From positions 1 through 58,996 of the forward strand of contig PFUL01000040.1 of the NCBI GenBank assembly GCA_002790095.1: a stretch of 58,996 bases of DNA, written 5' to 3'. This DNA comes from Elusimicrobia bacterium CG_4_9_14_3_um_filter_62_55. GTDB lineage: Bacteria > Elusimicrobiota > Elusimicrobia > UBA1565. Below, piece by piece: positions 1 to 48,154 of this stretch. Below the pieces are notes generated by a model, which was not told the DNA's origin, ran no database searches, and worked only from the letters and a program-made list of their open reading frames with translations. The position numbers were made by a program, and so were the translations under genes. Within the stretch, counting starts at the first letter, position 1, and each line of letters begins with the position of its first letter.

Positions 1-1
1 T

Positions 2-100
2 GAGATTTTCCCCCAGCGACCGTACCCCGTCCAATAGGGCTCGCGGACGCCAGTCACCCGCCCCGACGGCGCCGCAGAGGCGCCGGTTCGTCGGCCCTGC
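2..100. repeat. Copy 1 of a structured 99-bp dispersed repeat
   Basis: This block aligns without gaps to 47763-47861, with about 17 mismatches by hand count (roughly 83% identity). Both copies can form a 7-bp GC hairpin with the same GCAGA loop (here 67-73 pairing with 79-85). One base pair is swapped in a compensatory way (C72-G80 here, G47833-C47841 there). Both copies end exactly 16 bases before a -35 box. The block starts at the window edge and may extend further left. No product is proposed; it could be a regulatory RNA, an upstream promoter module or the end of a mobile element. Confidence 0.7.
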
Positions 101-116
101 CGCAACGGCGGCGACA

Positions 117-145
117 TTGACAGCCCGTCGGGGCCCCGTTATACT
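117..145 (+). promoter_or_regulatory. Sigma70-type promoter for the radical SAM gene
   Basis: TTGACA at 117-122, a 17-base spacer and TATACT at 140-145 form a near-consensus promoter. The start codon follows 20 bases after the -10 box. It sits at a fixed distance from the 99-bp repeat, the same arrangement as at 47878-47906. Confidence 0.8.
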
Positions 146-165
146 TAAACGACAACAGATTTTCC

Positions 166-1767
166 ATGTCCTACCTGCATCTCATCGACGACACCCAGAA
201 ACCGACCGCCAGCCGGGACTCCTTCCGGCCGACGCCGCTCTCGCTCTGGGAAAAGCCCCGTACGCGGCCGATCCGCGTCTTTCTGTCGACGGTCCCCTAC
301 GACACGATGAAGTTGGGTTACGGGATCAACACAAAAACCAAGAATAAAAAGAAGATTTACGGCTACACCCCGCCGTTGGGCTTAGGGATGCTCGCCCGCG
401 TCTCAAAGGAGTACGGGGCCGAAGTCATCGTCAACGACGCGGGTCCGCTCGGCGACGACTACGACGACGTGATCGCGAAAGCCGCGGCGTTCAAGCCCGA
501 CATCGTCGGCTTTACGGTGTTCACCTCCAATTTCGCCCAGGCGCTCGAGAGCGTCGAGCGCGTGCGCAAGCACCCGCAGCTGAAGGACGCGCTGGTGCTG
601 ATCGGGGGTCCGCACGTCTACACCTTCCGCGATAAGACGCTCGACGAGATCCCGGCCGACATCGCCGTTTACGGCGAGGCCGAGGTGGACCTGCACGAAC
701 TCTTCGAGTACTACGACGGCAAGCGCGACGCGCTCGCGGCGGTGAACGGCATTTTCTACCGGACCAAAAACGCGATTAAAAAGACCGAGGAAACGCACTC
801 CGCCCGTTCGCTCGACAACTTCGGCTTCCCGGACTGGTCGCAATACGATTTCTCACTGTACCGGAACATCCCCGGGCAGATTAAGCGCTACCCGATGACG
901 AGCATGATCACCTCGCGCGGCTGCCCGTACCGCTGCAACTTCTGCTTCCAGGCGGGCCGCTTTGCCGACAAGTACCGCCGCTATTCGCCGGAGCTAGTGA
1001 TCAACGAAATCATGAAGCTGCAGGCGGACTACGGCATCCGCGAGATCCAGTTTTGGGACGACATCTTCTTCATCAACAAGAAGTGGGTGCAGACTTTCTG
1101 CTCGCTGATCAAGAAGAACAAGATTGATCTGACTTGGTCCGGCTACGCCCGCGTCGACCTAGTCGATCCCGATCTCCTGAAGATGGCCGCCGACTGCGGC
1201 TGTTGGAACATCTTCTACGGCTACGAAAGCGGCACCCAAGAGATGCTCGACTTTCTCGACAAACGCGCGACGCTCGAGCAGGCGGTCAACGCGACGAAGT
1301 GGACGAAGGCGGCCGGCATCGGCATCCGCGGCTCGTTCATGGTCGGCCTCCCAAACGAGACGCCGGAAAAAGGCCGCAAGACGATCGAGTTCGCGATCGC
1401 TCTCGATCCGGACTACGCGAACTTCAACATCTTCTTTCCGGAACCCGGCACCATCCTCTACGAACGCGCGATCGAATCGGGCCGGCTGCTGTCGCAGTCG
1501 TATCTCGGGCGAACGGTGCCGGTGTACCTGCCCGAAGGCTATTCGTCTCCCGACGAGATCCGCGCGCTGCAGCAGGAGGCGTTTCGGCGGTTCTACTTCC
1601 GCCCGTCCTACATCATGCGCCGCCTGATCCGCACGCGCTCGTTCGAGGAACTCGAGCAGTACTACGAAGGCGCGATGATGCTGCTCTCGATGGGGAAGAC
1701 GAAGGTGAAGTACGCCTTCCACACCGAAAACTCGAAGACCGGGCAGGAAAGCCGGAACGTCTTTTGA
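166..1767 (+). CDS. B12-binding-type radical SAM protein
   Basis: A 533-residue protein with the architecture of the BchE/HpnJ-like group of radical SAM enzymes: an N-terminal Rossmann-like cobalamin-binding region (about residues 40-200), then a radical SAM core. The iron-sulfur motif CxxxCxxC is intact at C253, C257 and C260 within SRGCPYRCNFC. The usual cobalamin DxHxxG motif is not evident; NDAGPLG stands at about that position, so B12 binding is uncertain. The ATG lies 20 bases behind a strong promoter, without a clear Shine-Dalgarno. It overlaps the next glycosyltransferase by four bases (TTGA), so the three genes to 3938 are probably one operon, perhaps for lipid or polymer modification. 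The substrate cannot be read from sequence. Confidence 0.85.
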   Translation: MSYLHLIDDTQKPTASRDSFRPTPLSLWEKPRTRPIRVFLSTVPYDTMKLGYGINTKTKNKKKIYGYTPPLGLGMLARVSKEYGAEVIVNDAGPLGDDYDDVIAKAAAFKPDIVGFTVFTSNFAQALESVERVRKHPQLKDALVLIGGPHVYTFRDKTLDEIPADIAVYGEAEVDLHELFEYYDGKRDALAAVNGIFYRTKNAIKKTEETHSARSLDNFGFPDWSQYDFSLYRNIPGQIKRYPMTSMITSRGCPYRCNFCFQAGRFADKYRRYSPELVINEIMKLQADYGIREIQFWDDIFFINKKWVQTFCSLIKKNKIDLTWSGYARVDLVDPDLLKMAADCGCWNIFYGYESGTQEMLDFLDKRATLEQAVNATKWTKAAGIGIRGSFMVGLPNETPEKGRKTIEFAIALDPDYANFNIFFPEPGTILYERAIESGRLLSQSYLGRTVPVYLPEGYSSPDEIRALQQEAFRRFYFRPSYIMRRLIRTRSFEELEQYYEGAMMLLSMGKTKVKYAFHTENSKTGQESRNVF

Positions 1768-43707: not shown

Positions 43708-44964
43708 TCACCGGACGAACGCCCCGCGCATCGACGCGAGCTCTGAGGACGGGATATCCAGCCTTCGGGCCGCGTGCTCCCAGCCCGACACGGTTTCTTT
43801 CACCCGGCTCATGATTTCCGCGGCGCGCGCGTCGCTGAGGCGGAAATAACCGCGCACGCTCCAGGCCAAATCGAAATCCAGCGCGTTGTCGTTCTCGGAG
43901 ATGGACAGGCTCAGGCCGCGGCCGTGCGGCTCGGGGTTGAGGTCGTAGGCGGGCGACAGGCGCCAGCCGTCGGGCCGGAGCAGGAAGCCGTGGTTGCGCA
44001 GGTGGTCGTCGGTGTTGGCGACGGCGATGGAAAATACCACGCGGCGCCACAACTCCGCGCAATCCTCATCGGGGCGCGCGCCATGCTTGGCGATGATCTC
44101 CACGAGATCCAGGTAGCTCGCGGACTCTCCGTCGACGCGCCCCAGCATCGTCATCGCCGACGCGAAGTGAACGCGCGCGCCGGACGCCGTCCGGTCGAAG
44201 CGTCGGGTCAGGAAAGTACGGCCGCCGCTGGAGAGGCGCTTAACGGCGGCGTCGGCGACGCGGATGCCGGCGGCGCGCGCGAGGTCATGGGCGACGAGTT
44301 CCCAAGCGGCATGGTCGCGCTCGTCGCGGCGGCGGGGAAACTTGGCGATCCACAGGCGCCCCTCGGGGTCGGCGACGCCGGCCTTAGGGCGCGCGCCTCC
44401 CAGCGAGGTCCCGGGCGCCAACAGCAGCGCGAGCCAGTCCTCGTACGCGGGGTCGTCGGCGGCATCGTCGCGCTCCAGCGACAGGCTGGCGTGCTCGAGT
44501 TCCCTAAGCGACGCCCACGGCGGGACCGGCGCCCCTCCGCCTTCGCCGAGGAACGGACCGTCGGGACGGTCCTTGAAGCGCAGGCCGCCGAGGCGTTGGG
44601 CGTCGTGGACGCCGAGCAAGTAGTCGGACTCCCGGAGGCTGCGTTCCGCCCGGCCCTCGGCGCGCGCCTGAGCGGCCTCGCGTCGGCGTAGGAGCAGTCG
44701 TCCCCAGCGGTCCGGCGCGGAATCAAGGAAGAGGCCGAAGTTGCTCTTGTGCGCGGCGCCCAGGTACTGGGGACCCGGATAGAGACCGAGGTCGGGATCG
44801 AGGAGGCGGGCCCCGGGGGATTTGAGCCAGGCATCGTCGTAGGAGAACGAGAATACCTCCGCGGCGCGCGACGGCGTCGCGGTGAGTTCCCCCATGGGGC
44901 GCAGGTCCTGCCCCTCCCAGTCGGCGAAGACGAAGAGGCTCCGTCTGGCGGGCTTAGTCGGCAT
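43708..44964 (-). CDS. hipA: HipA-family serine/threonine kinase toxin
   Basis: A 418-residue HipA. The small N-terminal domain is followed by the kinase core with SLGGARPKAGV, the catalytic NTDDHLRNHGFLL and the metal-binding SPAYDLNPEP motifs. E. coli HipA phosphorylates glutamyl-tRNA synthetase and induces dormancy. It overlaps hipB by 11 bases and the hipB-hipA order matches typical modules. All catalytic residues seem present, so the toxin should be active unless neutralised. Confidence 0.9.
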   Translation of the reverse strand: MPTKPARRSLFVFADWEGQDLRPMGELTATPSRAAEVFSFSYDDAWLKSPGARLLDPDLGLYPGPQYLGAAHKSNFGLFLDSAPDRWGRLLLRRREAAQARAEGRAERSLRESDYLLGVHDAQRLGGLRFKDRPDGPFLGEGGGAPVPPWASLRELEHASLSLERDDAADDPAYEDWLALLLAPGTSLGGARPKAGVADPEGRLWIAKFPRRRDERDHAAWELVAHDLARAAGIRVADAAVKRLSSGGRTFLTRRFDRTASGARVHFASAMTMLGRVDGESASYLDLVEIIAKHGARPDEDCAELWRRVVFSIAVANTDDHLRNHGFLLRPDGWRLSPAYDLNPEPHGRGLSLSISENDNALDFDLAWSVRGYFRLSDARAAEIMSRVKETVSGWEHAARRLDIPSSELASMRGAFVR

Positions 44965-45472: not shown

Positions 45473-45714
45473 ATGAAAATAGATGAATTATGCCCTCTTT
45501 TAAGGAACCCCTATCATGCGGGCGCTCCCGGCGGCATCGAAAAAATCGCTGAACAAGGCTACGAAAACATCTGGTTCGTCGTGCCCCCGGCTCCGCCGCG
45601 CGTGGTCCCCGACAACCTCCCGGTCGCGCAGATGGCGGCAGCCAACACCGTTCTCGGCCGTCTGCCTGATTTTCGCCGGATGGACGAAACCGATCGGCTT
45701 ATCAACTACTTTTT
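45473..45714 (+). pseudogene. 5' part of a small gene cut by an insertion sequence (Fic N-terminal-like)
   Basis: The frame starts at ATG 45473 behind a promoter and runs 80 codons up to the left end of the insertion sequence, where it meets a TAG four bases into the element. The peptide contains WFVVPPAPPRVVPDNLPVAQ and AANTVLGRLPDFRRMDETDR, which resembles the N-terminal helical domain of Fic/DOC proteins (PPLPP followed by a short helical pair). No HxFx(D/E)GNGR AMP-transfer motif exists in the window, so any catalytic part is missing. The identification is tentative. Confidence 0.45.
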
Positions 45715-45723
45715 CCCATAGCG

Positions 45724-46683
45724 TCAAAAGTCCGTTGGATTGGGGGTCAGCGCGTGCCTAAAGCGACCGTTGGCGCGCGGCTTCGGCAGTTGGGCGCTCA
45801 AGGGCCGGCCGAGGCCGCGGGCCAAAGCCCCCAGTTGCGTGCGAAGGCGGTGGTGGCGGATGAGTCCCCGAAGCTGATCGTAGGAGGCCTTCATCAGGTC
45901 CTTGCCCACGTCGCTGAGTAGGTGGGTATGGCAGCCCAAGATGGGGGTGTCCCATTCCATTTCCAGGACCAGTTGTTCGGCCGCTTCGATCGGGGCGCGA
46001 CCCAGGTCCCGCATGATCGCGCAAGGTCGCCCAAAGGCCTGGGCCACCTGCCGCAGCCGAGGCAAGATCAGATCGGCGCGTTCGGTCGAGAGCTTCCAGG
46101 CCCCTAGCGCCCATTGCCGCCACGCGTTGTAGACAACGAAGGTCGTGCCTCGCCCGTTCTCGCCGGTGGCGTCGATGTGCATCGGATAGCCGCCGTCTTC
46201 GCGCATCGCAGCCGCCAGTTGGGGGGCCCGTTTCCAGTGGAGGGCCTCCAGGTGTTCGACGAAGCGCCCGGCGAGGCGGCTCTCCTGTCCGGTGGAAACC
46301 GAGATGCGATGCTCGTTGAGTTCCCCGCGAACTTCCTCGCGTTGATGGTGCTGGAGATGGCGCGCCGAGCCCACGTGGACCTCCAAGTCGTAACCGTAGA
46401 CCGCGACCGGAGCTACCTGACGGGCCAAGGTCTGCGAGCGGACGATGGTCGGCTGTCCCGACGGCTCTCGGCAACCGGACTTGCACACGCGCAGCACCTC
46501 GTGCGCCACGAAAGGCCCGTGCGCCAGAGTGACGACGTTCCGATCGGCGGACCTCTGGAAGAGCGTCGGCCCCGCGCAACGGGGGCAGGACTCGTCTTCC
46601 GGCAAAGCCGCCACCGTCAGGCCCGCCGTGCTTGAAGCCCGGCACCGAGTCTCGGCCTCGGCCAGGCGCCGGTGGGTCCTCAA
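45724..46683 (-). CDS. Transposase with zinc-ribbon N-terminus
   Basis: A 319-residue product. Cysteine pairs CPRC and CKSGC (about 30-75) form a zinc ribbon. A following segment has HIDATGENGRGTTFVV and CAIMRDLGRAPIEAAEQL, whose aspartates are the likely DDE-type catalytic residues (RNase-H-like fold), and LEMEWDTPILGCHTH provides a possible third acidic residue. It starts at TTG in an overlap with the upstream gene and its stop lies within the left inverted repeat. It should cut and join the element ends. The family name is uncertain. Confidence 0.75.
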   Translation of the reverse strand: MRTHRRLAEAETRCRASSTAGLTVAALPEDESCPRCAGPTLFQRSADRNVVTLAHGPFVAHEVLRVCKSGCREPSGQPTIVRSQTLARQVAPVAVYGYDLEVHVGSARHLQHHQREEVRGELNEHRISVSTGQESRLAGRFVEHLEALHWKRAPQLAAAMREDGGYPMHIDATGENGRGTTFVVYNAWRQWALGAWKLSTERADLILPRLRQVAQAFGRPCAIMRDLGRAPIEAAEQLVLEMEWDTPILGCHTHLLSDVGKDLMKASYDQLRGLIRHHRLRTQLGALARGLGRPLSAQLPKPRANGRFRHALTPNPTDF

Positions 46684-47360
46684 CGCCGCGAGCGCGGCGA
46701 GCGGACCCCCTTTTTTCGGCCCAGCTTGTAGCGCTCGAAGACCTGGCGGACTTGGGCCGCCGTGGCGCCTACCCCACGGGCGACCAGCCGCCGGGCGACT
46801 TCCGCGGGCGTAGCGTCCACCGTGGCCGCATCCAGAAGTTCCAGTAGCACCTCGATCACCAGGTCGGAGGGCGGCCTGCCCTCAGACGCACTTACATCGA
46901 GCCTGCGCGCGAGTTGTTCGCAGGCGCGCTCCCCATCCACGCTCACATAGAGCGAGCGCTCCTCGCTGGAAGACTCTCGCCGTATCTTGCAGGCACGCGC
47001 CAAGTCGAGCAGGGCGTTGTTGACGCGCACGCGCAGAATCTCGTGCAGCTCGCGCGGCGTCCGGCCGGCGGAGGATGAGTCTACCAGGTCCACCACCGAC
47101 GCCTTGAGCGTCCCCGCGCGGGAGAATCCGACGTCGCGGTAATGCCAGAGGCCGAAGGCGTCAAACTCAGGAATGCTGCGCAGGGTGTAGAACCGGCACG
47201 TGTGAGTGTAGCTGGAGAGGTAGCCGACCTCCTTCATCCTCCGGAACACGCTCATGCGCGAGCGCGTTTGGAGGGCCTGATAGAGCGCGCGTAGTTCAAC
47301 GACGGGCGTCCTTCGGAATAGCTTCTGTAGCGCGGTCTTTGCCTGGAGAGAGTCGAGCAT
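46680..47360 (-). CDS. Accessory insertion-sequence protein with a winged-helix-like N-terminus
   Basis: A 226-residue protein. The N-terminus (TPVVELRALYQALQTRSRMS, then FRRMKEVGYLSSYT) reads like a winged-helix DNA-binding domain; the C-terminus has alanine-rich helices and a basic end (YKLGRKKGVRSPRSRR). It is coupled by TTGA to the transposase, so it may bind the element ends or repress transcription. The inverted repeats at 47371-47402, just upstream, could be its operator. I do not know a named family. Confidence 0.6.
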   Translation of the reverse strand: MLDSLQAKTALQKLFRRTPVVELRALYQALQTRSRMSVFRRMKEVGYLSSYTHTCRFYTLRSIPEFDAFGLWHYRDVGFSRAGTLKASVVDLVDSSSAGRTPRELHEILRVRVNNALLDLARACKIRRESSSEERSLYVSVDGERACEQLARRLDVSASEGRPPSDLVIEVLLELLDAATVDATPAEVARRLVARGVGATAAQVRQVFERYKLGRKKGVRSPRSRR

Positions 47361-47370
47361 GGTGCCTCGG

Positions 47371-47402
47371 ATACACTGAGTATATTAGTGTATGGAGTGT
47401 AT
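47371..47402 (-). promoter_or_regulatory. Candidate operator upstream of the insertion-sequence genes
   Basis: ATACACT (47371-47377) and AGTGTAT (47387-47393) form an inverted repeat, and AGTGTAT repeats at 47396-47402. A minus-strand TATACT at 47379-47384 lies between the arms, so binding there would control transcription of the coupled genes. ATACACT also recurs around 47482. Confidence 0.45.
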
Positions 47403-47563
47403 CATACGGAAGGGCAGAATACCAGCTCTTGCAAAGTCGGCTCCGACGGAAGGGGCAACTACAGGTGGAGGTGAGGCTGATACACTCAGGAGTTAGCGGC
47501 GACGGAAAAATCTTTGTATTTCAATTCAAACTAGGCGACCCAACGGACTTTTGACGCTATGGG

Positions 47564-47670
47564 TTTTCGCAGATGCTGTGGGCGGAACTGACGCACACCG
47601 TCGTAGATCCCGGCCGGCTTCGCGCCTTGCTAGAGCGGCGCATCCAGATTCGATTCGATACCAGCTAGAC
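47564..47670 (+). pseudogene. 3' remnant right of the insertion sequence
   Basis: Removing the element and one TTTT copy joins 45714 to 47568 and gives an open frame of 114 codons plus a TAG at 47668-47670. The sequence after the joint (ADAVGGTDAH and so on) does not look like a conserved domain, while another frame reads SQMLWAELTHTVVDPGRLR, which looks more protein-like. So either the joint is not exact, or a frameshift also occurred. No function is proposed. 47671-47762 holds nothing recognisable. Confidence 0.3.
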
Positions 47671-47762
47671 CCCAAGCGCCGTACGTGCCCCGGTCCGCCG
47701 TGCCGCCGCCCTAACCTAAGCTGAGCCCAGCCAATACGAACCCGTCCCGCGGGCTCGTGTGC

Positions 47763-47861
47763 GAGATTTTCCCCCAGTGACCGCACCCCACTGAATCGGC
47801 CTCGCGGGCCCCGGCCGCCCGCCACGACGGCGGCGCAGAGCCGCCGATTCGTCGGCCCTGC
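47763..47861. repeat. Copy 2 of the structured 99-bp dispersed repeat
   Basis: Matches 2-100 without gaps. The 7-bp hairpin is at 47828-47834 and 47840-47846 with loop GCAGA. A second possible short stem pairs 47777-47780 with 47802-47805, again with a compatible change (G-U here for G-C in copy 1). It ends 16 bases before the -35 box at 47878, exactly as copy 1 does. It lies in the accessory region, 200 bases from the insertion sequence. Confidence 0.7.
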
Positions 47862-47877
47862 GGGCGATTCCGTCAGC

Positions 47878-47906
47878 TTGAACTGAGTCGAGTCGGCTGA
47901 TATACT
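47878..47906 (+). promoter_or_regulatory. Promoter of the DUF433 gene
   Basis: TTGAAC (47878-47883), 17 bases, TATACT (47901-47906), then 11 bases including GGTAGGA to the ATG at 47918. It has the same position relative to the 99-bp repeat as the promoter at 117-145. Confidence 0.7.
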
Positions 47907-47917
47907 GGCGGTAGGAT

Positions 47918-48154
47918 ATGGAAAACCTTCAGGTCCAAGAGTACATCGCGGTCGACAAAGACATCTGCCACGGGAAGCCCTGCTTCAAGGGGACCCGGGT
48001 CATGGTCGCTTCAGTCCTTGAGCTTCTCGAAGCCGGCCAGACGACCCATGAGATCATCCAAGGTTATCCGGCGCTCACGCCCACCCACATCAAGGCCGCG
48101 CTTCATTTCGCGGCCCAGGCTATCGACAGCGGCAAATTCGTCCCGTCGGCCTGA
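47918..48154 (+). CDS. DUF433-domain protein, antitoxin-like, orphan
   Basis: A 78-residue protein with the DUF433 pattern: ICHGKPCFKGTRVMVASVLELLEAGQT followed by IIQGYPALTPTHIKAALHFA. This small helix-turn-helix-like domain often serves as antitoxin to a PIN-like DUF5615 nuclease encoded just downstream. No such nuclease follows here; the next 450 bases have no intact gene. It may be a remnant pair member or act alone as a DNA-binding protein. Confidence 0.8.
   Translation: MENLQVQEYIAVDKDICHGKPCFKGTRVMVASVLELLEAGQTTHEIIQGYPALTPTHIKAALHFAAQAIDSGKFVPSA

Follow-up and report, generated by a model that had tools for sequence, protein, structure and literature searches.

Within the window, i.e. 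the whole stretch of 58,996 nucleotides that was analysed, two copies of a repeat, c1 (2-100) and c2 (47763-47861), lie upstream of a B12-binding radical SAM gene and a DUF433 gene (PF04255, E 7.6e-22), respectively (Table 1). A preceding sequence-only reading had aligned the two without gaps at 83 % identity, which we confirmed, and had described them as a 99-bp module present in two places. Both window copies are real, but a search of the whole source genome (G000, a draft assembly assigned to Elusimicrobiota by the relatives of its genes) with window positions 1-145 returned a total of six (c1-c6), four of them outside the window, and a looser pattern search recovered the identical set. Five of the six copies are located at contig ends, which is the signature of a repeat that breaks the assembly. 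Oriented alike, all six terminate at the identical base (...CGTCGGCCCTG), past which no sequence is held in common and the flanks are unrelated. The true last base is 99 in c1 and 47860 in c2, one base earlier than first read, the following C being shared by chance. In the other direction, the extent of 99 bp proved too short, as c2 is identical to the C121 terminus (c3) back to 47738. No left end belonging to c2 was found in the window, and this copy is probably truncated. Furthermore, c1 and c4 are identical over 93 bases on contig C171, and c5 and c6 form a second identical pair; we regard the members of both pairs as recent copies.

The region upstream of c2 contains a HipA-type kinase gene and an IS-like unit that is bounded by perfect terminal inverted repeats of 24 bp (CCCATAGCGTCAAAAGTCCGTTGG), has T runs on either side and ends 174 bp upstream of c2. 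Its two minus-strand ORFs had no Pfam or NCBIfam match above the cut-off, and the unit possibly represents an undescribed transposase family. Its left end interrupts an 82-aa ORF resembling the start of a Fic-type protein, for which neither a Pfam match nor an obvious continuation past the unit was found, and a 34-aa reading-frame fragment upstream of c2 likewise had no family match.

Table 1. Features of the two window copies and their surroundings, and location and predicted promoters of the four copies outside the window
Feature	Position	Strand	Remark
c1, right end of the putative transposon	1..99	+	5' part lost at contig end; terminates at 99
c1, target-site duplication CCGCAACGG	100..108	.	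matches left junction at C111 start
c1, predicted -35 box TTGACA	117..122	+	17 nt past element end; kept in element-free L007/L008
c1, predicted -10 box TATACT	140..145	+	sigma70 score
B12-binding radical SAM gene	166..1767	+	downstream of c1
HipA-type kinase gene	43708-44964		upstream of c2 region
82-aa ORF	45473-45721		Fic-like start
IS-like unit	45715-47563
319-aa ORF of IS-like unit	45724-46683	-
226-aa ORF of IS-like unit	46680-47360	-
34-aa reading-frame fragment	47564-47665		upstream of c2
c2, right end of the putative transposon	47738..47860	+	at least 123 bp; matches C121 terminus
c2, expected duplication CGGGCGATT	47861..47869	.	by analogy with c1, c3 and c6; right copy only
c2, predicted -35 box TTGAAC	47878..47883	+	sigma70 score
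c2, predicted -10 box TATACT	47901..47906	+	sigma70 score
DUF433 gene	47918..48154	+	downstream of c2
c3, predicted promoter TAGACA/TATAAT	C121 end
c4, predicted promoter TGGCCG/TATACT	C171 start		-35 poor
c5, predicted promoter TTGACA/TATACT	C194 end		spacer 16
c6, predicted promoter TTGACA/TATTTT	C21 end

Fixed spacing to predicted promoters

The 115 nt following the repeat (offsets 0-114) were scanned in each copy with a bipartite sigma70 score built on approximate E. coli frequencies, with the genome base composition as background. In all six copies the top sigma70-like score fell at offset 17, where the score summed over the six copies was 90.6 as against 35.9 at the runner-up offset; genomic positions scoring equally well amount to a fraction of 8e-6 to 1.4e-3, depending on the copy. 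The -35 and -10 boxes that the sequence-only reading had assigned to c1 and c2, each with a 17-nt spacer, were recovered, whereas its gap of 16 bases before the -35 box becomes 17 nt, since the repeat ends one base earlier. The fixed sigma70 spacing itself extends to 6/6, none of the four further copies lacking it, while the shared TATACT is a property of c1 and c2 but not of c3 or c6. In c5 the distance to the -35 box is maintained and that to the -10 box is not, and this single case hints at anchoring on -35 rather than on -10. All six copies are in one orientation, with the right end facing the predicted promoter (“right” denoting the promoter-side end, named without reference to a transposase gene).

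The genes behind the copies had been called unrelated for the window pair, and this is true of all six: radical SAM, DUF433, methyltransferase, nucleotidyltransferase-like, sigma-70 region 4, and an FtsX/M23 peptidase fusion. At c5 (L026, C194), the element lies upstream of the gene for the sigma-70 region 4 protein and may therefore affect a regulator.

Left end, target-site duplication and empty sites

The left end was identified at c6. The G000 ortholog of the gene that stands upstream of the c6 site in G001, a member of the same genus, sits at the end of contig C125, which past the stop codon of this ortholog reads ...CCAT TATTAAGGT CAGCCCTGAAGAATAGG... and then stops. The nine bases that follow the element at c6 are likewise TATTAAGGT. 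This 9-bp target-site duplication at both c6 junctions defines CAGCCCTGAAGAAT... as the left end. When this end was used as a query, two more left ends were recovered, one at each end of contig C111, which are preceded by CCGCAACGG and CGGACGCGG, the nine bases following c1 and c3; the start of C111, reversed, reads ...GA CCGCAACGG and, across the junction, CAGCCCTGAAG..., the left junction matching c1. Thus, the c6 duplication defined the left end, and those of c1 and c3 were predictions that were confirmed, the length being unambiguously nine only at c6, as c1 and c3 are also readable as ten. For c4 and c5 the expected duplications are TGAAGAATG and GCGTTCGGG, seen as for c2 on the right side only, and left junctions of these three copies were not found. 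The duplications share no sequence consensus. The left flanks had no promoter at the mirror offset 17 (scores -4.9, -12.4 and -11.3).

Matching duplications imply the contig joins C110(start)-element-C111(start), C111(end)-element-C121(end) and C125(end)-element-C21(end), C110 being the contig of the window, and the window at base 1 therefore runs through the element into C111. A tRNA-Met (CAT) gene is found immediately left of the c1 insertion, at the C111 start (L085/L082). The two ends of the element, CAGCCCTGAAGAAT and CAGGGCCGACGAAC, are unequal, sharing 9 of their first 13 bases and 10-12 of 17. Left ends (L080, L081, L082) contain subterminal repeats of TTTTTCGCA(C/A)C, and a CCGTCGTrGC motif is common to left and right ends; both could possibly serve as transposase binding sites.

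Relatives provide sites that lack the element. In G005 and G001, the orthologs of the c1 gene (78 % and 74 % identical, respectively) keep the promoter CATTGACAGCC, the element is absent, and an upstream gene, not found in G000, ends at or immediately before the -35 box. At c6, G001 displays the uninterrupted site ATTAAGGTAGACGGTATTGACA...GGCGGCTATTTTG without element, and before the c6 gene it has ATTAAGGTAGACGGTATTGACAACTGCCTATTTGGCGGCTATTTTG where G000 has ATTAAGGTAAACGGACTTGACAAGGGCCCGCTTGGCGGCTATTTTG right after the element. Because element-free orthologous loci keep the promoters, comparison of these loci shows them to be older than the element at c1 and c6; the promoter is the target of insertion, not its cargo.

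Interpretation and rival readings

A transposase-bearing interior was absent from the bin, no contig continuing the element ends was found by end overlap, and no complete copy (CAG...CTG plus 9-bp repeat) was convincing, in both cases within the 1.28 Mb of G000 examined. Neither the ISKra4-type transposase (NF033572) nor the ISAs1-type transposase domain DDE_Tnp_1_assoc (PF13808) matched in G000, both weak results as the bin is without the interior, which is probably missing because a multi-copy contig escaped binning. About 340 other Elusimicrobiota genomes held no convincing copy, the phylum scan giving 76-79 bits for the six copies of G000 and 25 bits or less for all else, and plasmid, phage and viral collections had no match to the element. 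BLAST matches in 56 relatives were discarded as copies, being short and, where inspected (L010-L022), resembling coding sequence. Plasmid pHTA426 was tried and set aside as a yardstick for ISLre2, since its annotated ISGka4 gene is IS66-type and a decayed ISLre2-like copy yielded no clear ends.

The junctions and alignments establish the termini of the element, its duplication, its orientation and its spacing to the predicted promoters. We have high confidence that it is a promoter-targeting transposon, and the best explanation overall, which we hold to be very probable, makes the 99-bp block the right-hand end of a DNA transposon that inserts upstream of promoters, presumably by p-MULT 3-like targeting. 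Elements of p-MULT 3 (TnGBS, ISLre2) integrate 15-17 nt before the -35 box, with a peak at 16, their right end facing the promoter, and have 8- or 9-bp repeats; the orientation is attributed to their unequal ends, and they have been proposed to contact RNA polymerase (PMC3942029). For TnGBS, an 8-bp repeat and a distance of 15-16 bp from -35 are reported (PMC4701971). Since our element agrees with these published ones in its fixed distance, its single orientation, the inequality of its ends and the length of its duplication, a TnGBS/ISLre2-type mechanism is favoured, and p-MULT 3 appears the most likely, if unproven, family.

The element has the structure 5'-CAGCCCTGAAGAAT ... CGTCGGCCCTG-3', with unequal terminal inverted repeats and a 9-bp target duplication. 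At its spacing to the predicted promoters, the joint of one strand lies 8 nt and that of the other 17 nt before the -35 hexamer, i.e. near -44 and -53 relative to the start site. A Mutator-like DDE transposase (p-MULT, TnGBS/ISLre2-like, PF06782) would find its site via promoter-bound RNA polymerase/sigma, and unequal recognition of the two ends would fix the orientation. Insertion at this position would avoid coding regions and keep the core promoter whole. Of the sequence-only reading, mobile DNA at a fixed sigma70 spacing is retained and a promoter carried by the element is not; its proviso that the block might prove the end of a known insertion sequence came true insofar as the block is a transposon terminus, although none was identified by name.

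The rival that survives best is a transposon of an unrelated DDE family, whose promoter targeting evolved independently, through either RNA polymerase contact or reading of -35 DNA. The ends of the element begin with CAG, unlike the GGG of the sole ISKra4-type copy delimited in the phylum (L220), the inverted repeats are weak, and the bin is without a p-MULT 4 transposase; moreover, protein-adjacent targeting at a fixed distance is found elsewhere, e.g. in ISAjo2/IS1202 at 5 bp from XerC sites (PMC10132070). However, the element agrees with the published p-MULT 3 pattern in its distance, its orientation rule and the length of its repeat, and we rate this rival as rather unlikely. That another transposase family, new to promoter targeting, is at work, in which case integration guided by RNA polymerase with single-base precision would have had more than one origin in bacteria, we consider doubtful.

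A regulatory DNA element (an activator-binding module or UP-like element), kept at a fixed helical phase throughout a regulon, could account for the diverse genes downstream, and a class I activator site would likewise show exact spacing and one orientation. Yet 9-bp target duplications flank both junctions, the left end is distinct, near-identical copies stop abruptly, and a sister species has an empty site, with orthologous promoters lacking the block. As origin, this reading is refuted, and its overall standing is very poor; a regulatory side effect after insertion is possible. Hardly credible, too, is random insertion followed by selection purging all but promoter-upstream insertions: gene disruption would be harmful in a compact genome, but purging alone cannot give one exact distance and orientation in 6/6, recent copies included.

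The hairpin pointed out earlier is present and forms part of the element's right end, but its C-G/G-C swap does not stand as a sign of structural selection, as the pair is mismatched in c3 and covariation is no greater than in shuffles. A structured RNA is not supported either, with covariation at 259/500 versus shuffles and no Rfam match above threshold. The notion of a mobile promoter, in which element and promoter transpose as one module, is refuted by the empty sites and is the least plausible of all: even though a promoter-like site stands just outside each of the six copies, the element is followed by the 9-bp duplication, copies have no relation past base 99, and the promoters exist before orthologous genes in relatives without the element.

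Comparison with known systems

Promoter-targeting transposons are rare and known mainly from Firmicutes; p-MULT 3 itself is distributed chiefly there, with few members in Fusobacteria and Synergistetes (PMC3942029). A clean case in a GC-rich Elusimicrobiota genome, with a single exact distance in all copies and a natural empty site in a sister species, points to a conserved component of the bacterial transcription machinery as the targeting cue. The inner joint at 8 nt from -35 is a sharp testable prediction, and such elements could reveal which predicted promoters of uncultured bacteria are real.

Like TnGBS/ISLre2, the element is found at a fixed short distance before a sigmaA/sigma70 -35 box, in a single orientation, with unequal ends and a consensus-free short duplication. 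It differs from them in standing at exactly 17 in 6/6, in its short terminal repeats, and in a 9-bp duplication as compared with the 8 bp of TnGBS. Subtracting the repeat length, we infer that the inner joint would lie 7-8 nt from -35 in TnGBS versus 8 nt here. Inverted repeats of p-MULT 3 measure 18-39 bp with a conserved terminal cytosine; both ends of our element begin with C, whereas their similarity fades past ~17 bp.

Some members of the ISKra4 group (p-MULT 4) also reside upstream of sigmaA promoters, and the L220 copy has a 9-bp duplication. In contrast to our element, promoter-targeting ISKra4 members have near-perfect inverted repeats and occur in both orientations. The ISAs1 family has ends starting with CAGGG and duplications of 8-10 bp, as at the element's right end, but the left end begins with CAGCC and G000 is without the ISAs1 transposase domain; to our knowledge, promoter targeting is not known in this family.

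The one-sided orientation and fixed distance from a protein-bound site are also reminiscent of ISAjo2/IS1202, the “pdif hunters”, where direct contact was proposed (PMC10132070), although these target XerC sites and have TGT ends and 5-bp duplications. Our model further resembles yeast Ty1/Ty3 upstream of Pol III genes, in which the transcription machinery guides integration and the Ty1 integrase is tethered to Pol III (PMC10050235), except that those are retroelements using a eukaryotic polymerase.
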